Of a stretch of 33,102 nucleotides of DNA, positions 3,222-19,005 are shown piece after piece. The translations under genes and the position numbers were made by a program. Numbering within the stretch: position 1 is the first letter of the stretch; each line of letters opens with the position of its first letter. Source of the stretch: a virus; IMG/VR virus record IMGVR_UViG_3300031612_000035, positions 1-33,102 of that record; one strand, written 5' to 3'. Under the pieces are notes generated by a model, which saw only the letters and a list, made by a program, of their open reading frames with translations, was not told where the DNA came from and did no database searches.

Positions 3222-3575
3222 TCAACAAATATTTGTTTTATCGGTTAAATTATACCAATCGGCTATAATCGGTTTAAACCACTCAGGTGCGTTTTCGTCT
3301 TCGTTCTGGCGATCAAATAAATTTAGGGCCACAAATTTTGCCACATCAACTGTAACGTCAGTAAAACTTAGATCTAAAAAATTTAAACGCAGAACCCGGA
3401 TGCTACTGTCTTCAGAGCACTCTGCATAAACCAATTTTGCGGCTTCTGACAGCGTGTTTGGCATGTCTTCGCCTACTGGCAAATGATTAAAGTGGCGCGT
3501 AATGCCAAGGTCTGGGCGAACAATCGTGCCGCTAGACGTAACCAGATATTGATCCATTTGCTGTTTCTTTGTCAT
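3222..3575 (-). CDS. Conserved-looking hypothetical early protein
   Basis: This 117-aa soluble protein has no membrane segment or recognisable motif. It is rich in acidic residues in the middle (VYAECSEDSS, FDRQNEDENAPEW) and ends in a Trp-containing region. It belongs to the leftward early operon. Its ribosome binding site (AAAAAGG, about 7 bp before the ATG) is the third of three near-identical TTAAAAAGG elements in the leader, the other two lying in the 3597-3633 tandem repeat. The unusual leader suggests its translation or expression level is tuned separately from the genes upstream. Function unknown. Confidence 0.65.
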   Translation of the reverse strand: MTKKQQMDQYLVTSSGTIVRPDLGITRHFNHLPVGEDMPNTLSEAAKLVYAECSEDSSIRVLRLNFLDLSFTDVTVDVAKFVALNLFDRQNEDENAPEWFKPIIADWYNLTDKTNIC

Positions 3576-3596
3576 TTTATATTCCTTTTTAAGAGA

Positions 3597-3633
3597 GGGG
3601 GTCCCTTTTTAATTAGGGGGGTCCCTTTTTAAT
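3597..3633. repeat. Tandem 17-nt repeat duplicating a Shine-Dalgarno-like segment
   Basis: Two identical 17-nt copies (plus strand GGGGGTCCCTTTTTAAT, 3597-3613 and 3617-3633) lie with a 20-bp period. On the transcribed minus strand each reads ATTAAAAAGGGACCCCC. A third partial copy (TTAAAAAGG, 3584-3592) is the real ribosome binding site of the gene starting at 3575. The GGG and CCC of neighbouring copies can pair with each other. This is a leader between two genes of the leftward operon, so it may act on mRNA structure or translation. Confidence 0.8.
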
Positions 3634-3637
3634 CGGG

Positions 3638-3654
3638 TGGGGGCCGAAGCCCCT
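3638..3654 (-). terminator. TTCG-tetraloop hairpin after the 3662-3979 gene
   Basis: On the minus strand, GGGGC-TTCG-GCCCC (3640-3653) forms a very stable tetraloop hairpin seven bases past the stop of the upstream gene. In the direction of transcription it is followed by CACCCGATTAAAAA rather than a T-tract, so it is more likely an mRNA 3'-end stabiliser, processing or attenuating element than a full intrinsic terminator. Read on the plus strand, a TTTAGTT tract follows it, but no plus-strand gene precedes it. Confidence 0.5.
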
Positions 3655-3661
3655 TTAGTTA

Positions 3662-3979
3662 TTAAAATTCGCTGTCAAGAACTCTTGCTATTCCACGACC
3701 AGTGCTAATTCTGGCTACAAACCAAGCACCCTTTGCTTTCTGATAAACAACTTTAAGGTCGGAAAGGTCTATTCCTTGGTCAACAGATGCTTCAATCATT
3801 GTTGTATCCATTACAAATTTTTTATCATCAAGTGCCATTTTTTTGCCCTTTTCTTCTTTTACGTATTCGTCAACTCTGCAAGCGGCTTTGGCTTCGCTCT
3901 GTGTTTTATATTTTTCAGGAAGAATATAATCTTCCATCATCATGCGATCATATCCATAAATTTTGTAAAATTTTGCCAT
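3662..3979 (-). CDS. Hypothetical early protein
   Basis: This is a 105-aa charged protein with no family I recognise. The N-terminus is Tyr/Met-rich (YKIYGYDRMMMEDY), the centre is Lys/Glu-rich (about 25-55), and the C-terminus looks beta-rich (about 75-105, with VVYQKAKGAWFVARIS). Its ATG shares a base with the TAA of the preceding gene (TAATG), showing translational coupling. It is probably co-transcribed with the gene at 3979-4167 from the divergent promoter region at 4.2 kb. A stable tetraloop hairpin follows its stop. Confidence 0.65.
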   Translation of the reverse strand: MAKFYKIYGYDRMMMEDYILPEKYKTQSEAKAACRVDEYVKEEKGKKMALDDKKFVMDTTMIEASVDQGIDLSDLKVVYQKAKGAWFVARISTGRGIARVLDSEF

Positions 3980-5398: not shown

Positions 5399-5770
5399 TC
5401 AAAACGGTATTTCATCATCTAAATCTGCAAGTTCAACTTGTGTAGATGATGGGGTCTTAGGGGCGCTGGGGGCCACTTTACCGCCTTGTAAGGTTAAATC
5501 ATTAACCCTTACGCCCAAATACGTTTTGCCGTTATAATCACGTTGAGTAAGCTCTCCGCTTACCGTCAAACTTGTACCTTTTTTTAAGTAAGGCTGGACA
5601 CCAACAGCACGTTTGCCAAAATAAGAGCAATCAAAAAACATAGTTGTTTTATTTGGTCCGTAGCCATCATCTACTGCGACTGCGAATGTAACAAACTGAG
5701 TTTGGTCCACACCCCCCTTTTTAATTTCACTTTCTTTGGTAAGACGCCCAGCAATTGTAATTGATTTCAT
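5399..5770 (-). CDS. ssb: Single-stranded DNA-binding protein
   Basis: This 123-aa SSB has an OB-fold domain at about 1-100: an ITIAGRLTKESEIK start, VTFAVAVDDGYG, FFDCSYFGKRA, YLKKGTSLTVSGEL and KTYLGVRVNDLTL. A short Pro/Ser linker follows, and it ends in the acidic tip DLDDEIPF that in bacterial SSBs recruits partner proteins. It should coat ssDNA during replication and annealing. Its ATG overlaps the TGA of the ERF gene (ATGA), so annealing protein and SSB are translationally coupled. Length is typical of phage SSBs. Confidence 0.94.
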   Translation of the reverse strand: MKSITIAGRLTKESEIKKGGVDQTQFVTFAVAVDDGYGPNKTTMFFDCSYFGKRAVGVQPYLKKGTSLTVSGELTQRDYNGKTYLGVRVNDLTLQGGKVAPSAPKTPSSTQVELADLDDEIPF

Positions 5771-6643: not shown

Positions 6644-6662
6644 ATAAGTTATGGAGATTAAA

Positions 6663-6833
6663 ATGTTAACCCTAGATGAAATTCGTGAAAAACTTAATGA
6701 TGTAAACATGAGTAAGGTTTCAAGAGATACTGGACTTTCTCGCCCAACCATATATAAGTTCTTGAATAGTATGGCTAAAATGGAATATGATACTGTTAAA
6801 AAGGTGTCTGATTATTTTGAAAAGGAAGCCTGA
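6663..6833 (+). CDS. Small HTH regulator, Cro-like
   Basis: This 56-aa DNA-binding protein consists almost entirely of one helix-turn-helix: TLDEIREKLNDVNMSKVSRDTGLSRPTIYKFLNS, with SRPTIYKFL as the recognition helix. An in-frame ATG lies 12 bp upstream (6651), but GGAG sits six bases before the ATG at 6663, so I choose the shorter form. It is placed exactly where a lambda Cro-type repressor would lie, between a divergent operator region and the replication initiator. It probably binds the palindromes at 6.6 and 4.2 kb, which is inference. Its TGA overlaps the initiator ATG (TGATG). Confidence 0.78.
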   Translation: MLTLDEIREKLNDVNMSKVSRDTGLSRPTIYKFLNSMAKMEYDTVKKVSDYFEKEA

Positions 6834-7543
6834 TGTCTCACTATATGACTGCATTGGCTATGAAACAGAAAGGTCTTCCGCCTGCGGCTAAGATTGTTTT
6901 GTATTGGATTGCCGACCATCACAATGGTGAAACAGGTAAATGCTACCCCAGCATCAACAGGCTTGCTTATGTCTCTGAGATGTCTGCAACTTCAGTCAAA
7001 AATCATCTTCGTTACTTAGAGCAAGTTGGCTTGATAAAGCGCTTTTCTCGAGTTCGTCCAGAGGGGGGGAAGTCATCAAATCAATATTCGCTTTGCCTTA
7101 ATGATGTTGAGTTATTTAACGATGGGCAAAATCCGCCTATGGGTGGGGCAAAATCTGACTGTGGGGATGGGCAAAATCCGCCTATGAACCTTGTAACTAA
7201 TAACCTTGGAACTAAACCAAGTATATTAGCTCAATCAAATAAGGATTTAGATACTAAGTTTGATGATTTTTATGCTTCATATCCAAGAAAGACAGCAAGG
7301 GGTGCTGCAAAGGTATCGTGGAGAAAGGCTTGCAAGGGAGTTGATGCTGACGTTATTATTTCTCAAGCTGCTTTATTTGCGGCTAGTGTAGAGGGTAAAG
7401 AAAAAAAGTTTATTCCACACCCAGCTACATGGTTAAATCAAGAAAGATGGGATGATGAAGTATTCGCACAAGCAGACAGCGAACAAGACCAGAATAATCT
7501 GGTACAAAAAATATTTGCAGAAATGGTGAAACCAAATGCGTGA
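6833..7543 (+). CDS. Replication initiator, lambda O-like, with N-terminal winged helix (HTH_36)
   Basis: This 236-aa protein starts with a winged-helix DNA-binding domain (about 1-90: AKIVLYWIADHHN, CYPSINRLAYVSEMS, NHLRYLEQVGLIKR). A short repetitive linker follows (about 96-120, with the DGQNPPM repeat). The C-terminal domain (about 140-215) carries FDDFYASYPRKTARGAAKVSW and HPATWLNQERW, a module common in phage replisome organisers. Such proteins bind origin iterons and load helicase through a partner. The linker-coding DNA contains three regularly spaced GGGCAAAATC elements followed by AT-rich DNA, as in the lambda O gene. It overlaps the preceding HTH gene by one base and the next gene by 8 bp. 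Confidence 0.8.
   Translation: MSHYMTALAMKQKGLPPAAKIVLYWIADHHNGETGKCYPSINRLAYVSEMSATSVKNHLRYLEQVGLIKRFSRVRPEGGKSSNQYSLCLNDVELFNDGQNPPMGGAKSDCGDGQNPPMNLVTNNLGTKPSILAQSNKDLDTKFDDFYASYPRKTARGAAKVSWRKACKGVDADVIISQAALFAASVEGKEKKFIPHPATWLNQERWDDEVFAQADSEQDQNNLVQKIFAEMVKPNA
7121..7250 (+). other. Candidate replication origin: three iterons plus AT-rich stretch inside the initiator gene
   Basis: GGGCAAAATC occurs at 7124-7133, 7146-7155 and 7169-7178, with spacings of 22 and 23 bp, about two helical turns each. The outer two copies are embedded in an identical 21-bp repeat (7121-7141 and 7167-7187); the middle one is imperfect. AT-rich DNA follows (about 7188-7260), a possible unwinding element. Lambda-type origins have this layout within the O gene, so an origin is a reasonable inference. 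Confidence 0.6.
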
Positions 7544-8009
7544 TGAACAAATTCAACAACTGACACTAAAACTTCTGAGCCGCCTAAACCCGCCTCGTGC
7601 GTTGACAGGACAAGCACAGGCAATCAAGGATGAAGCAACATTCCTAGCTAAGTGCATTAACCGTGTAGCGCCAACTCAAGGTCTAAATGATTGGTTTGAG
7701 AACTTTGAAGAGGCTGTGCTAGGTAATTTAGAGACAAGAACATGGCCGACTGCCAAAGAATTGTCCAAGGCTGCATCACAAATCATAAAGGCTCGGCCAG
7801 TGTTCGCTAACCATATGGGTGAGAGCGAGTGGTCACTTTCACCAGCAAAGATTAATGCAAAACGCATTCAAGGTGGTTTTTCTGTATGTGACACATGGTT
7901 GAGCGGCAATAAATTAAAAGAGATTTTAGCTACTGGTCTGGTAAGCGAAAATGATTTGCATCCTTACCAAAGAACAGCATCCTTGCAAAGAGATGAGCTT
8001 TATGGTTAA
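7536..8009 (+). CDS. Replication-region protein of unknown function (possible helicase-loader analogue)
   Basis: This 157-aa soluble, helical protein has no Walker motif. Recognisable stretches are ALTGQAQAIKDEATFLAKCIN (23-43) and WPTAKELSKAASQIIKARP (about 69-87), but I cannot name the family with confidence. It overlaps the O-like initiator by 8 bp and ends the early rightward operon. That is the position of a lambda P-type helicase loader, which is context inference only. A strong terminator lies about 65 bp downstream. Confidence 0.6.
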   Translation: MRDEQIQQLTLKLLSRLNPPRALTGQAQAIKDEATFLAKCINRVAPTQGLNDWFENFEEAVLGNLETRTWPTAKELSKAASQIIKARPVFANHMGESEWSLSPAKINAKRIQGGFSVCDTWLSGNKLKEILATGLVSENDLHPYQRTASLQRDELYG

Positions 8010-8127
8010 ATTTAATTGCTGCTTTTGCAGTCTGCTCGGTAGACCCCTTCCTGTGGGTCAGCCATTAACTATCTGGCAGAGAGATAAGACGGAGCCTCTT
8101 ATTTTTCTGCCAGCTTTTTTAATTTAG
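8002..8127 (+). CDS. Possible 41-aa Cys-rich small protein
   Basis: An ATG overlapping the stop of the preceding gene (ATGGTTAA) opens a 41-codon frame (MVKFNCCFCSLLGRPLPVGQ...) ending at TAG. The placement would allow translational coupling. Against it, the last third is the stem of a strong terminator (8073-8120), and 8019-8030 and 8042-8059 form short hairpins, so the segment may be noncoding structured RNA instead. Confidence 0.3.
   Translation: MVKFNCCFCSLLGRPLPVGQPLTIWQRDKTEPLIFLPAFLI
8073..8120 (+). terminator. Strong Rho-independent terminator between early and late genes
   Basis: CTGGCAGA at 8073-8080 begins a 17-bp stem (8073-8089 with 8097-8113, two G:T wobbles, no mismatch) closed by a 7-nt loop and followed by TTTTTT (8115-8120). 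Two smaller hairpins precede it: CTGC/GCAG at 8019-8030 and GACCC/GGGTC at 8042-8059. It separates the replication operon from the terminase genes, so late transcription needs its own promoter downstream or antitermination. Confidence 0.9.
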
Positions 8128-13460: not shown

Positions 13461-14914
13461 TGAGTAAACAATCAGACTTAGTTGTCATTTCTCAAATTGG
13501 TGTACCTTCACCTTTTAACCCACAAACAACTGCCATAGGTCCGGGCGATGCGGTTACTACAACTTACGCTGTAACCGTTGCATCTTCTGGTGGGGCTAAT
13601 AGGTATTTTATTGACGGGGTAGCATACCCTAAATTAACATTATCTCGAACATACATCTACATCTTTGATCTGTCTAATAGCTCAAACACTGGACACCCAC
13701 TACGTTTTAAAGACGCTGCAGGTAGCTCGTACTCCACAGGGGTTGTGGTTACTGGAACTCCGGGGCAGGCAGGTGCTAAAGTTACACTCACTGTTGCAGC
13801 TAATGCTCCAGTGGCTTTGAGCTATTACTGTACCGTTCATGGGAATGCTATGGGTAATACGATAGCAGTGACTAATTCCGCATCTTTAAATGTAGGCGCA
13901 AATAACTACTTCGATAGTGAGAGCTTAACTGCTAATACTTCGGTTAATTTTACAAGTGTCCCAACAACAGCTAATTGGAGATACAGCTGTGTGACACCTA
14001 ACTTAGATGCTGGGAACGTGACTGCTTCTGTTTACACGAATGGGATTAGCGTTACAGCTAAGGCAACCGCCCCCGAAGAAGTGTTCTTCAAACCAGATGG
14101 CACTAAGATGTACATTGCGGATGATGCGGATGATAAGGTTTTTGAGTATAACCTAATTATAGCTTGGGACGTTACTAGTGCTGTTTTTAGCACCGCCTCG
14201 CCAAACTTTTCCGCTCAAGAGACTAGCGTAAGAGGTTTATTCTTCAAACCAGATGGACTAACGATGTACATCTCAGGTAACTACCTCTCAGGGAGAGTTC
14301 ACCAGTACACCTTAAGCACAGCTTGGGATGTCGCTTCAGCTACTTACACATCACGCTTTACGACAGGGAGTGAAGAAACACGGCCAGAGGGCCTGTTCTT
14401 CAAGCCTGATGGAACTAAGATGTATCTTATGGGGTCTGTCAGTGACAACGTATTAGAGTACAACTTAGGCACAGCTTGGAATGTTACCACAGCGGTCTAC
14501 TCGCAGGCGTTCTCTATATCTGCTCAAGAAGGTGGCCCACACAACGTATCCCTTAACACCACGGGTACTAAGATGTACGTGTTGGGCGACTCTGGTAAAG
14601 CTGTCTTTGAGTACACCCTAAGTACAGCTTGGAATGTTACTACAGCCACTTACGTACATAGCTTCTCTGTGGGTGGTCAAGAAAATTCCCCTTCAGGGAT
14701 GTTCATTAGGGCTGATGGTTGTAGGATGTTCGTTATAGGTAGTGCCAACGACACTGTATTTCAGTACGAAATAGGCGCTGCCACAACCGTAACTATGCCA
14801 GCAGAAGTTTCTGGCACACCTAGCTCTACATCACATAACGATAAAGTGACATACACTTTTGTAACAACAGACAGTGGATCAACAGTAGACTTAATAGCAG
14901 AGGAGATAATCTAA
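13460..14914 (+). CDS. Tail protein with cupredoxin-like domain and beta-propeller-like repeats
   Basis: This 484-aa protein is taken from the ATG at 13460. Residues about 33-137 form a cupredoxin-like domain with all four type-1 copper ligand positions: H79 in NTGHPLRF, then C124, H127 and M131 in YYCTVHGNAMGN. Residues about 205-437 hold five tandem repeats of roughly 50 aa (FFKPDGTKMYI..., VFEYNL.TAWDVT.A.Y), the last one shorter, as in YVTN/SMP-30-type beta-propellers. The C-terminal 40 residues are a separate strand-rich tail. In a fibre cluster, the propeller may bind host surface sugar or protein. Copper binding is suggested by residues only. The domain recurs in the 20442-22259 protein. 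Confidence 0.8.
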   Translation: MSKQSDLVVISQIGVPSPFNPQTTAIGPGDAVTTTYAVTVASSGGANRYFIDGVAYPKLTLSRTYIYIFDLSNSSNTGHPLRFKDAAGSSYSTGVVVTGTPGQAGAKVTLTVAANAPVALSYYCTVHGNAMGNTIAVTNSASLNVGANNYFDSESLTANTSVNFTSVPTTANWRYSCVTPNLDAGNVTASVYTNGISVTAKATAPEEVFFKPDGTKMYIADDADDKVFEYNLIIAWDVTSAVFSTASPNFSAQETSVRGLFFKPDGLTMYISGNYLSGRVHQYTLSTAWDVASATYTSRFTTGSEETRPEGLFFKPDGTKMYLMGSVSDNVLEYNLGTAWNVTTAVYSQAFSISAQEGGPHNVSLNTTGTKMYVLGDSGKAVFEYTLSTAWNVTTATYVHSFSVGGQENSPSGMFIRADGCRMFVIGSANDTVFQYEIGAATTVTMPAEVSGTPSSTSHNDKVTYTFVTTDSGSTVDLIAEEII

Positions 14915-16278
14915 TGGCTGGGTACACTGGACCAGTAAACGCTGGAATAACTGCTCAAGCTCAAAGCAAAGAAGTTTTCGCCGTAACTACAAGCACCACT
15001 GCATTTAGCTTTGCGCATGACCTTCTGTCACTCCAAGTGTTCCACAACGGCATCCGCCTAGTTCAAAATACTGACTACTCAGCAAATGGCGTTGTAGTCA
15101 CCCTTACTAATGCAGCAATAAACGGGGACCAAGTAGTATTAATAAGCAACCCTAGTTTTCAAGTGGCAGACGCTTACACTCGGACAGAGGCAGATGCTGC
15201 GTTTCTAAAACCCGCAAGCAGTCTTAACGCAGCCAAGCTGACAGGGGCTTTACCTGCAATCTCTGGTGCAAATCTTACAGGATTAGTTGCTACTTTTTCT
15301 GGGTTATCAGACACAACTGTCTCAACGTCTGACCCTGCTCTCAACACTAACCCCTCGTCTGGCGTGGGTCACATCTGGGCTAATAAGACTTCTGGTGAAA
15401 TGTATATCCTTAAAACCGCGACCGCTAATTCTAATGTCTGGGTTAACGTAGGTGATGGTAGTGGGGCTATTGAGCCTTTTGAAACCACAGGCGGAACTAA
15501 AACAACTTCTGGTTCTTATACTTATCATACTTTTACGTCTTCTGGAACCTTTGCAGTTGTCGGGCAAAATAGGTCAGCCGATTATCTTATTGTTGCTGGT
15601 GGCGGTGGCGGTGGCGGTAATGGCGGGGGCTATGGCTATTACGGAGGCGGCGGCGGCGCTGGTGGTCTTATACAAGCGTCTACAACAATAAGCACAGGGT
15701 CTTATGCTATAACCGTTGGGGCAGGTGGAGTAACACGAGGGGGTTATAATGGCGGGGGCGGCCTTGGAGTAAACTCTTCTTTTGCAAGTCTTACTGCTGC
15801 CGTAGGCGGCGGAGGGGGAGGATGTTCCTTAAATTCCCAAGCATACGATTTTGATGGTACTAGCGGCGGTTCTGGAGGCGGCGGCGGCGCTGGTGGCGAA
15901 GGAGCCAACGGAACATCAGGTCAAGGTAAAGCGGGTGGTGACAACCCAAATGGAGCTGCTGGCGGTGGTGGTGGCGGCGGTGCTGGAGCAGCTGCCTCAA
16001 ACGGTGGAACTTACGGTGGTGAGGCTGGTAATGGTTTGGACTACTCCGCATGGGCAACCGCAACGTCAACAGGAGACTCAGGGTACTACGCTGGTGGAGG
16101 CGCAGGCGGTCCCGGTGCATCACCCGGAGGCGATGGCGGCGGCGCAAGCTCAATTGCTAGTGGCATTGCTGCTAACGCACAGGTAAATACTGGCGGCGGC
16201 GGCGCAGGCAACAACACCAATGTCAGTGCTGGTTCTAATGGCGCCTCTGGTATCCTAATCATTCGCTATCTAACTTAA
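14914..16278 (+). CDS. Tail adhesin 1 with glycine-rich tip
   Basis: This 454-aa protein has an N-terminal module (about 1-85: AGYTGPVNAGITAQAQSKEVF, FHNGIRLVQNTDYS, a DQVVLISNPSFQV segment). A linker with YTRTEADAAFLKP and LTGALPAISGANLTGL follows, then a segment about 128-183 shared with the next two adhesins (FSGLSDTTVSTSDP...VGHIWANKTSGEMYI). The tip (about 222-454) is very Gly-rich and ends in ILIIRYLT, the glycine-rich domain known from phage receptor-binding adhesins, which can form packed polyglycine II helices. Gly-flanked loops would contact the receptor. The ATG overlaps the upstream stop (TAATG). Confidence 0.82.
   Translation: MAGYTGPVNAGITAQAQSKEVFAVTTSTTAFSFAHDLLSLQVFHNGIRLVQNTDYSANGVVVTLTNAAINGDQVVLISNPSFQVADAYTRTEADAAFLKPASSLNAAKLTGALPAISGANLTGLVATFSGLSDTTVSTSDPALNTNPSSGVGHIWANKTSGEMYILKTATANSNVWVNVGDGSGAIEPFETTGGTKTTSGSYTYHTFTSSGTFAVVGQNRSADYLIVAGGGGGGGNGGGYGYYGGGGGAGGLIQASTTISTGSYAITVGAGGVTRGGYNGGGGLGVNSSFASLTAAVGGGGGGCSLNSQAYDFDGTSGGSGGGGGAGGEGANGTSGQGKAGGDNPNGAAGGGGGGGAGAAASNGGTYGGEAGNGLDYSAWATATSTGDSGYYAGGGAGGPGASPGGDGGGASSIASGIAANAQVNTGGGGAGNNTNVSAGSNGASGILIIRYLT
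15352..15396 (+). repeat. 45-nt direct repeat, copy 1 (shared adhesin segment)
   Basis: This 45-nt stretch encodes the SSGVGHIWANKTSG part of adhesin 1 and is identical to 16735-16779 in adhesin 2. A second identical 29-nt block lies just upstream (15308-15336 and 16691-16719). The third adhesin has the same protein segment (starting near 18060) but a diverged DNA sequence. This is a likely site for homologous exchange of the variable tips. Confidence 0.9.
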
Positions 16279-16292
16279 TAGGAGAATAAAGC

Positions 16293-16643
16293 ATGGCGCA
16301 TTACGCAAAAGTAAATAACGGCTTGGTAGAGCAAGTAATTGTGGCGGAGGCTGATTTCTTTGATACATTCGTGGACAGCAGCGCAGGTCAATGGATACAA
16401 ACATCCTACAACACCTACGGCGGTGTTCATGCAAACGGAGAAACACCTCTTCGCAAGAATTATGCTGGCATTGGCTCAACATACGATGCTGAACGGGATG
16501 CTTTCTATGCACCACAGCCATACCCAAGCTGGACGTTGAATAACGGTAGCTGCATCTGGGAAGCCCCAACTGCGTACCCCGATGACGGTAAGGTTTACAC
16601 TTGGAACGAGGGTACTACATCATGGGACGTAGTAGATGACTAA
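16293..16643 (+). CDS. Conserved marine-phage tail-region protein
   Basis: This 116-aa protein (MAHYAKVNNGLVEQVIVAE..., QWIQTSYNTYGGVHANG, LRKNYAGIGSTYD, DAFYAPQPYPSWTLN, a DDGKVYTWNEGTTSWDVVD end) is a type I recognise as frequent in cyanophage and pelagiphage genomes, always near fibre genes. The Trp/Tyr-rich, beta-strand pattern suggests a small structural or chaperone-like fibre component. Function is unproven. The ribosome binding site is GGAG/AATAAAGC before the ATG, and it overlaps the next adhesin by 8 bp. Confidence 0.78.
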   Translation: MAHYAKVNNGLVEQVIVAEADFFDTFVDSSAGQWIQTSYNTYGGVHANGETPLRKNYAGIGSTYDAERDAFYAPQPYPSWTLNNGSCIWEAPTAYPDDGKVYTWNEGTTSWDVVDD

Positions 16644-17673
16644 GGCAAGAGACAACGCCAATGGAGGCGCAAGTGAGTTCTCTGAACTGACAGACACAAC
16701 TGTCTCAACGTCTGACCCTCTAGGAAACAGCAATCCCTCGTCTGGCGTGGGTCACATCTGGGCTAATAAGACTTCTGGTAACGTGTATGTTTTAACGAAT
16801 GCCACGGCAGGTTCTAATGTTTGGACTAACGTAGGCGATGGGTCTGGCACCAAGCCCGGTCAAATGGAAGCCACTGGAGGTGCAGTTACTACTGTTGGAG
16901 ACTTTAAAGTACATACGTTTAACTCCTCTGGGACTTTTACTGTACTTAATGTAGGGGCTATCGGGACTGTTGAGGTTTTGTTAATTGCAGGCGGCGGCGG
17001 GACGGGCGCCACATCCTCGGGGGACGGCGGGGCAGGCGGCGGCGGTGCAGGCGGTTTATTGTATTATGGCGCAGAAACTCCCAAAACCCCTAATGGAGCT
17101 AGTGTTTCTGTAAGTGAAACGTCTTATAGCATTGTTATTGGCGCTGGCGGCGGTTCTAGCTCGGCCTTGGGCGCACCCGGAGCAAATTCAACAGGCTTTA
17201 GTTTAACATCTAGTGGCGGTGGACGAGGCGGGTCATATCCGGGGACATATGACAATGCCTACAGTTCTCTTTCGGGCGGCTCTGGCGGCGGTGTTTACAC
17301 TGGAACAACAGGCTCTGTTTCTGGGCAAGGTAATGACGGCGGCGCTAGCGGTGGATCGGCTAATTTTCAAGGTGGTGGTGGCGGTGGCGCAGGAGCTGTT
17401 GGGCAAGTTGGCGGTTCGGGTTCAAATGGTGGCGCTGGTGGCGCTGGTCTAGCCTACGTTATCTCAGGTAGTTCTGTAACTAGAGCTGGTGGTGGCGGTG
17501 GATACGGCAGAAACAATTCTGCTGGTGCTGGTGGCGCTGGTGGTGGCGGTGGTGCCGTTAATTATGGTACTGGTGCTGCAGGTGGTGCAAACACGGGCGG
17601 TGGCGCTGGTGCTGGTAATTCAACAGGTGGATCAGGTGTTTGTATTATTAGATACCGATTCCAAGCAGCATAG
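16636..17673 (+). CDS. Tail adhesin 2 with glycine-rich tip
   Basis: This 345-aa protein lacks the N-terminal module of adhesins 1 and 3 and begins almost directly with the shared segment (about 14-70: FSELTDTTVSTSDP, GHIWANKTSGNVYVL). A GGAVTTVGDFKVHTF linker leads to a Gly-rich tip (about 117-330) ending in GVCIIRYRF. It overlaps the upstream gene by 8 bp. The missing N-terminal domain means it either attaches differently or arose by partial duplication; the 45- and 29-nt identical stretches shared with adhesin 1 support recent exchange or duplication. Confidence 0.8.
   Translation: MTKARDNANGGASEFSELTDTTVSTSDPLGNSNPSSGVGHIWANKTSGNVYVLTNATAGSNVWTNVGDGSGTKPGQMEATGGAVTTVGDFKVHTFNSSGTFTVLNVGAIGTVEVLLIAGGGGTGATSSGDGGAGGGGAGGLLYYGAETPKTPNGASVSVSETSYSIVIGAGGGSSSALGAPGANSTGFSLTSSGGGRGGSYPGTYDNAYSSLSGGSGGGVYTGTTGSVSGQGNDGGASGGSANFQGGGGGGAGAVGQVGGSGSNGGAGGAGLAYVISGSSVTRAGGGGGYGRNNSAGAGGAGGGGGAVNYGTGAAGGANTGGGAGAGNSTGGSGVCIIRYRFQAA
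16735..16779 (+). repeat. 45-nt direct repeat, copy 2 (shared adhesin segment)
   Basis: Identical to 15352-15396, in the same reading frame of a different adhesin gene. Neighbouring bases differ except for the 29-nt upstream block, so the identity is local and not simply a recent duplication of the whole gene. Confidence 0.9.
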
Positions 17674-17682
17674 GAGGACATC

Positions 17683-19005
17683 ATGTCCGGATACATAGGC
17701 ACAGTACCAGTACCACAGGCCACCCAAACCCGGGAGGCTTTTACAGCAACGGCGAACCAAACTTCTTTTGCTACAATAGGCTACGAACCGGGTTTTCTTG
17801 ACGTTTTCTTAAATGGCGTCAAGCTAGCCGCCGCAGACTACACGGCAACGAACGCGACGAATGTTGTGCTGGCTACGGGCGCAGCAGTTAATGATATCTT
17901 AGAAATTGTTGCATATAAGACTTTTAATGTAACTAATACGCTAGCACCTAACGGAAGCGCCGCCAATCTGACTAACCTACCAGCAGCACAGCTGACAGGG
18001 GCTTTGCCTGCTATTAGTGGTGCAGCTTTAACTGGTTTAGTTGCTACTTTTTCGGGGTTATCAGACACAACGGTAGCAACATCAAATCCAGCTGCCAACA
18101 CTAACCCTACATCTGGGTTGGGTCACATCTGGGTTAATAAGACCTCTGGTCAAATGTATGTTTGTACTAATGCTACCGCTGGTTCTAACGTGTGGAGCAA
18201 CATAGGTGTAGTTGCAGCGGGTCTTGTTGCAGCCACAGGTGGAACAGTGACCACAGATGGTGATTACAAAGTACACACATTTACCTCAAACGGCACGTTT
18301 AACATTACAGCAGCGGGTTCAGTTGATTACTTGTTCGTTGGTGGAGGAGGTGGCGGGGGCGCAGCAACTGGGACTTATGATGGTTGTGGTGGGGGTGGCG
18401 CAGGTGGGTTTAGACCTTCTCAGTTCACTGTAGCTTCTCCAGTTGCCTGTACAGTCACAATTGGCGCAGGAGGTGGCTCGGCTAATAATGGCGAGGCAAC
18501 TGGCTTACAAACCCCTACTGGTCTTTTGATTACAACCTTAGGGGGCGGCGCTGGGTCTAAACAAGGTGCTCAAGGTGGTTTTGGTGGTTCTGGCGGAGGC
18601 ACTGGTGGCAATAATGGCCAAGGTGGTACCGCAGAAGTATTTATGGGGAATAAGGGTGGAGGACAAACTAGTAACGGTTCTTCGGGAGGAGGCGGCGCTG
18701 GTGCAGTGGGCCAAGACCAACCCTTAGCAGATACAGGTGGTGCGGGTGGCAACGGTTTAGCTAATTCCATAACAGGAGCATCTGTTACCTACGCTGGTGG
18801 CGGCGGTGGCGGTGGTTATCACGACAGGCGGGCAAACGGTCGTGGACTAGGTGGGTCTGGCGGCGGTGGCGCAGGTGGCAACCTTGGCGCAGTACAGGGT
18901 GTTAATGCGACTGGAATTGGGTCTGGCGGTGGCGGTGCTTTTGGCAATAATAGCGGTGGCACTGGGTCAGCTGGTATTGCAATATTCCGCTACAAATTTC
19001 AATAA
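17683..19005 (+). CDS. Tail adhesin 3 with glycine-rich tip
   Basis: This 440-aa protein has an N-terminal module very common in marine phage fibres (SGYIGTVPVPQATQTREAF, then LDVFLNGVKLAAADYTA, about 1-85). It then has LPAAQLTGALPAISGAALTGL and the shared segment (about 127-185: FSGLSDTTVATSNP, GHIWVNKTSGQMYV). The Gly-rich tip (about 223-430) contains loops such as PSQFTVASPVACTV and TLGGGAGSKQGAQ and ends in GIAIFRYKF. GGAGG lies six bases upstream of the ATG. Same architecture as adhesin 1 but a different tip, so the phage carries three alternative or combined receptor-binding tips. Confidence 0.82.
   Translation: MSGYIGTVPVPQATQTREAFTATANQTSFATIGYEPGFLDVFLNGVKLAAADYTATNATNVVLATGAAVNDILEIVAYKTFNVTNTLAPNGSAANLTNLPAAQLTGALPAISGAALTGLVATFSGLSDTTVATSNPAANTNPTSGLGHIWVNKTSGQMYVCTNATAGSNVWSNIGVVAAGLVAATGGTVTTDGDYKVHTFTSNGTFNITAAGSVDYLFVGGGGGGGAATGTYDGCGGGGAGGFRPSQFTVASPVACTVTIGAGGGSANNGEATGLQTPTGLLITTLGGGAGSKQGAQGGFGGSGGGTGGNNGQGGTAEVFMGNKGGGQTSNGSSGGGGAGAVGQDQPLADTGGAGGNGLANSITGASVTYAGGGGGGGYHDRRANGRGLGGSGGGGAGGNLGAVQGVNATGIGSGGGGAFGNNSGGTGSAGIAIFRYKFQ

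Follow-up and report, generated by a model that had tools for sequence, protein, structure and literature searches.

A candidate lambda-like replication origin in the linker of an HTH_36 phage initiator gene

Introduction

Replication origins that lie inside the gene of their own initiator are known from phage lambda (PMC7466680, PMC5043065) and from oriL of phage SPP1 (PMC6316719). Here we analyze a 33,102-nucleotide stretch of viral DNA (IMG/VR record IMGVR_UViG_3300031612_000035, positions 1 to 33,102; hereafter the window), in which an O-like replication initiator gene encoding 236 amino acids (6833–7543, + strand) carries an array of short repeats, or iterons, followed by AT-rich DNA. Our reading, to which we give a probability of roughly 0.87, is that nt 7123–7261 are a replication origin embedded in the linker of the phage's own initiator gene, acting by the mechanism proposed below.

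In lambda ori the iterons are inverted repeats that lie midway along the initiator gene and fall in several codon phases; AT-rich DNA comes next, and a downstream gene overlaps the initiator gene (PMC7466680, PMC5043065). The initial annotation had proposed a layout of this kind, and each of its parts is found in the window: an initiator, an array of at least three iterons in the linker between its domains, adjoining AT-rich DNA, and a downstream gene that overlaps the initiator gene. The details differ: lambda ori itself has four iterons of a ATCCCTCAAA-type sequence at spacings of 20, 24 and 23 bp, whereas the window has three at 22 and 23 bp; the AT-rich region of lambda is of the purine-strand kind, whereas that of the window has tandem 15-mers with AACC; and the lambda initiator belongs to PF04492 (Phage_rep_O), that of the window to HTH_36. 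In SPP1, oriL likewise lies within the initiator gene (gene 38) and pairs initiator-bound direct repeats with an AT-rich unwinding element (PMC6316719); in the window, such binding is a prediction. Unlike the window, SPP1 has a second origin (oriR), a loader (gp39) and a DnaB-type helicase of its own (gp40); the comparison is one of organization and not of sequences. The iteron origins of plasmids P1, RK2 and R6K also place an initiator-binding repeat array next to AT-rich DNA, and the same binding is predicted here, but iterons of the window type lie within coding DNA and are palindromic in relatives. Finally, a related N-terminal domain is found in the phrog_270/HTH_36 initiators of other phages (Sb42 of ST64B, orf39 of SfV, and those of Pseudomonas and Vibrio phages).

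Results

The iteron array and its initiator gene

The window holds exactly three copies of the 10-mer GGGCAAAATC at zero mismatches (7124–7133, 7146–7155 and 7169–7178), spaced 22 and 23 bp apart. The outer copies lie within identical 21-mers (7121–7141 and 7166–7186) and translate as GQNPPM, whereas the middle copy is read in a different frame as GGAKSDC. The initial annotation had seen three elements at this spacing in the interdomain linker ahead of AT-rich DNA, with the outer copies in an identical 21-bp repeat that gives a protein repeat and the middle copy in another protein context; the exact matches, the predicted structure of the linker and the base composition given below bear this out on every point. 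Beyond what the initial annotation had noticed, the full repeat units are iterons of about 17 bp, to which no strand is assigned: iteron 1 (7123–7139) and iteron 3 (7168–7184) are both TGGGCAAAATCCGCCTA, while iteron 2 (7145–7161) is GGGGCAAAATCTGACTG, in a different codon phase and with a degenerate right arm.

The product of the gene matches HTH_36 at 1.8e-13 and the phrog_270 replication initiation protein at 2.2e-37 over residues 1–220, so that most of the protein is covered. The AlphaFold2 (AF2) model has an N-terminal winged helix with its recognition helix at residues 52–65 (the SATSVKNH region; 6986–7027, + strand) and strands at 68–71 and 84–87, the predicted wing spanning residues 68–87 (7034–7093, + strand). 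Residues 92–133 (7106–7231, + strand), which bear the array, lie between two folded regions and have predicted local confidence (pLDDT) values below 50, as in a disordered interdomain linker. The helical C-terminal region that follows (residues 136–236; 7238–7540, + strand) matches phrog_9474, phrog_10293 and phrog_9327, and is a candidate helicase-loader-binding domain.

Lambda O gives PF04492 at 5.7e-36, a domain not found in the window initiator, and hhalign of the two proteins yields no useful match (probability 6%). Both proteins match phrog_345, phrog_678 and phrog_391, and a remote kinship is possible. By the tests run the window initiator stands outside the lambda O family and, as far as sequence can say, its locus works like lambda ori. 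A Foldseek search with the initiator returned general winged-helix matches only, none at E 0.001 or better, and sequence searches against solved structures were uninformative both for the initiator and for the product of the overlapping gene at 7536–8009. Immediately upstream, at 6651–6833, is a small helix-turn-helix (HTH) gene of Cro/C1 type or addiction-module-like, whose stop overlaps the initiator start.

Selection at the DNA level

A repeat in coding DNA may simply follow a repeat in the protein. We therefore compared the array with a null model in which the protein is held fixed and synonymous codons are shuffled within the gene. None of 1000 such shuffles reaches the combined repeat and palindrome score of the window, and none of 1000 reaches the repeat score alone. 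In 13 of 5000 shuffles some 10-mer appears three times within 60 bp; the window itself has only three 10-mers repeated in this way, of which the other two are simple repeats. The array is also the top-scoring place in a scan of the whole window. Its score of 71 compares with 75 for phage lambda O in the identical test, which recovers three of lambda's annotated iterons, in different codon phases.

The relatives extend the comparison to 223 distinct initiator genes from viral contigs, 145 in the marine clade to which the window belongs and 78 in a Pseudomonas clade. Among the 145 marine genes, the best array is spaced 22/23 in 110 and has codon phases (2,0,2) in 108, and this spacing is retained though the iteron sequence diverges between lineages. 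Because neither 22 nor 23 is a multiple of three, the middle copy falls in another frame, and repetition of the peptide cannot explain it. All 48 distinct middle iterons match the outer copies above codon expectation (mean z 2.1), and in most of the 74 distinct marine linkers tested none of 100 codon shuffles reaches the array score; weaker arrays occur in L051-, L055- and L059-type genes. The iteron of the relatives is a 17-bp imperfect palindrome (TGCGCAAAATCTGCGCA, TGGCAGAATCTGCCA, GGACAAATTGTCC, TCGCAAAATGCGA and others), and in many of them (L044, L046, L064, L072) its palindromicity beats all or nearly all codon shuffles, with 0 of 100 doing as well in several. The peptide changes among relatives while the arms of the iterons stay complementary and their spacing fixed; a comparison of DNA element and protein in relatives was a check that the initial annotation had suggested.

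Compared with the nearest relatives of this phage (L031, L045, L046, L380 and L126), the iteron of the window, TGGGCAAAATCCGCCTA, has changed from C to G at position 3 and from G to C at position 15 in all three copies, six of six half-sites. In each window iteron positions 3 and 15 still pair, as G–C, even though the right arm of the middle one has otherwise decayed. At the codon level, the substitution at position 3 is silent in the middle copy but alters the amino acid in the two outer ones, and the substitution at position 15 alters it in every copy. These relatives have SRRSVE in the recognition helix where the window has SATSVK, and this joint change of six half-sites and helix indicates continued selection in the lineage. 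With the synonymous-codon nulls, the frame-shifted copies kept across relatives and the concerted substitutions all pointing the same way, the earlier suggestion of selection on the DNA itself stands: DNA-level selection acts on the iteron array.

Arrays of a similar kind are not confined to the marine clade. The Pseudomonas clade differs from the window in having 21/24 spacing in a single frame, with GAACC[AT]GT repeats downstream. Codon-independent arrays, beyond all 100 codon shuffles, are found in lambda, ST64B, SfV, Vibrio D67 and PVA1, Pseudomonas BR141a and Lactobacillus J-1, and also in several bacterial genomes; for Vibrio D59, Labrenzia V1 and Rhodobacter RcKai the array is matched by 1 to 3 of 100 shuffles. 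Many loci of the L441–L475 type in the Pseudomonas clade match the query only over the first ~129 residues, at 80–90% identity, which suggests an exchange of the C-terminal domain behind a conserved N-terminal domain and origin.

The AT-rich segment and a second repeat

Directly after the array comes an AT-rich segment (7187–7261, no strand assigned), a candidate DNA unwinding element: its GC content is 28%, and only 1.6% of the 75-mers in the window are lower. The segment begins with a tandem 15-mer (7187–7216, no strand assigned) whose two units are AACCTTGTAACTAAT (7187–7201) and AACCTTGGAACTAAA (7202–7216), and the motif AACCTTGKAA has no copies in the window besides these two. Two copies of AACCTTG[GT]AA exactly 15 bp apart directly follow iteron 3 in 99 of 135 marine genes, where the leucine in the repeat is encoded by CTT in 80% of cases, compared with 17% in the rest of the gene. 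In the Pseudomonas clade, 69 of 78 genes carry GAACC[AT]GT in two codon phases, mostly at a distance of 17 bp, and the same holds for ST64B, SfV, Vibrio D59 and Vibrio D67. The second repeat stays constant while the iterons change, so its user is probably not the recognition helix; that it serves in strand capture is a guess.

Recognition helix and iterons vary together

If the N-terminal domain reads the repeats, differences between iterons should be accompanied by differences in the recognition helix. In the marine clade, iteron similarity correlates with identity at helix residues 51–54, 56 and 57 with a partial r of 0.71, the effect of the rest of the domain being removed; none of 500 random sets of six other columns reaches this value, and their maximum is 0.46. 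Gene pairs are not independent, so this covariation is to be read as a ranking and not as a probability. Ranked column by column in the same clade, residues 56, 51 and 53 (K56, S51 and T53 in the window) are the first three and wing residue 80 is fourth, with secondary covariation in the wing at K80 and N83, a result that supports the view that the N-terminal domain would be the reader of the repeats. When the genes are sorted by residue 56, those with E have TGCGCA or TACGCA, those with Q have GGCA or TGCA, those with K have GGGC or GGCGC, and those with R have GGA. A second test, with 30 disjoint pairs of relatives, gives a rho of 0.70 for iteron similarity against helix identity and 0.75 against overall identity, and therefore cannot separate the two.

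SKRSV helices accompany GTGCA-type sites in L138, L477, ST64B and SfV, an anecdote that we do not use as cross-clade evidence. In the Pseudomonas clade, the iteron families GTAGGC and GGGGC accompany DRSTVRKH and [GSA]RSTVK helices in L403- and L418-type loci respectively, whose genes are otherwise similar.

Searches of the open-access literature, with subscription journals largely outside it, turned up work on lambda, Stx phages and SPP1 and no description of iterons in HTH_36 initiators or of a relation between helix and iteron. The covariation is the fresh part of this analysis, and the second repeat is also something that a specialist might not expect. Tentatively, at odds we would put somewhat short of even, the two can be combined: residues 51, 53 and 56 and the iteron half-site would covary as a specificity code across the family, in which E56 would pair with GCGCA and Q56, K56 and R56 with the sites given above, and sequence alone would allow uncultured phages to be sorted into origin compatibility groups. 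The lineage-invariant AACC array, which in the Pseudomonas clade is conserved as DNA and in two frames, would then serve separately in strand capture.

Discussion

The mechanism that we propose follows the lambda scheme. The winged-helix N-terminal domain, probably as a dimer, would bind the three 17-bp iterons 22 and 23 bp apart, and the bound array would strain and open the adjacent AT-rich DNA that begins with the tandem 15-mer. The C-terminal region would then engage the protein encoded by the overlapping next gene, a candidate counterpart of lambda P, which would deliver the host replicative helicase. Binding, dimerisation, melting, helicase loading and origin use are all inferred, and function as an origin is suggested by analogy with lambda and SPP1.

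The repeats could instead be operator sites, through which the protein autoregulates its own gene while replication starts elsewhere. Covariation and DNA-level selection point to binding and not to the firing of an origin, and the window has a further repeat array between genes, both of which would suit an operator. However, the sites are ~300 bp inside the gene and not at its promoter, they are followed by conserved AT-rich tandem repeats, and the similar in-gene arrays of lambda and SPP1 (PMC6316719) are origins, so that we regard operators as improbable. The intergenic array just mentioned, at 3582–3643, is the second-best iteron-like array: it has three CCTTTTTAA units at an exact 20-bp spacing between the leftward open reading frames (ORFs) 3222–3575 and 3662–3979, and could be a set of operators or a second origin-like site.

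It is more improbable still that the array is a relic, taken over from a relative and now out of use: the degenerate right arm of the middle iteron and the existence of variants with a change in iteron 1 would fit, but all six half-sites changed together, as did the recognition helix, which indicates that selection continues in this lineage. A tandem repeat selected at the protein level, which the DNA merely follows, is hardly credible, because although the outer copies encode identical peptides and the combined scores of L184 and L170 are not clearly beyond codon shuffles, the synonymous shuffles of the window gene never reach its score, the middle copy is in another frame, relatives alter the peptide under complementary arms and fixed spacing, AF2 gives the linker no structure, and the codon-preserving nulls largely refute the idea for the marine clade.

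Several observations weigh against an origin of the proposed kind. The window iterons are only weakly palindromic, the middle copy least of all, and the palindromicity of the window gene alone is not unusual among synonymous-codon shuffles; the middle copy, taken in the window alone, exceeds codon expectation only at p = 0.02, and both claims rest on the relatives. In two near-identical variants, L004 and L007, iteron 1 has a synonymous substitution at 7126. The array is weak in L059-type genes, and no convincing linker array is found in Arthrobacter Coral, Pontimonas phiPsal1, Xanthomonas SAC, Agromyces L175, L195 or L200. Covariation in the Pseudomonas clade is not significant, since 60 of 500 random column sets do as well, in a wider register search run after a narrow version, with the iteron finder out of register, had given a negative value for this clade; and between the marine and Pseudomonas clades helix and iteron show no correlation (r 0.009). 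GC skew, considered as evidence for an origin, changes sign near 6 kb, where gene orientation also turns, and so proves nothing. The product of the gene in the lambda P position has no match to Phage_lambda_P (PF06992) by sequence or profile comparison, which leaves its assignment weak.

From sequence alone, and with codon-preserving controls, the comparisons indicate that use of the lambda layout extends well beyond the lambda O family, to marine phages and to relatives that have other hosts. Natural variation in more than 200 genes ties helix residues to iteron sequence. This makes the old question of how O proteins select their own origin directly testable with pairs that already exist in nature, and it provides a means of locating origins in phage genomes from metagenomes.

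Neighbouring genes and other features

The downstream gene (7536–8009, + strand, 157 amino acids) overlaps the initiator gene by 8 bp, occupies the position of lambda P, and has a homologue downstream in 109 marine relatives; it is a candidate helicase loader. Its AF2 model has a pLDDT of 87, and its product has no PHROG match. A second look with VIA puts lambda P (9oa1_Z) in the top row (Z 8.7, 82 residues, root-mean-square deviation 2.6), but helical bundles need a higher score to be trusted, and an AAA+ ATPase reaches the same Z of 8.7, so the resemblance is a hint only, and the protein is possibly a lambda P analogue. An inverted repeat at 8073–8113, with 17-nt arms that are 88% complementary and 7 nt apart, lies between this gene and the next.

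About 30 of the larger of 111 listed ORFs were compared with PHROGs, ten of them also with Pfam. They include a single-strand binding protein gene in the divergent early region (5399–5770, − strand; SSB, 3.6e-13), a NinB-like gene, and genes for terminase, portal and head proteins. Among these ~30 there is no helicase, primase or polymerase, which fits recruitment of the host helicase. Rfam and tRNA scans of the window gave no matches. Further along, the three consecutive ORFs 14914–16278, 16636–17673 and 17683–19005 all match one profile region of phrog_2295, and therefore look like tandem paralogues among the tail-fibre genes.
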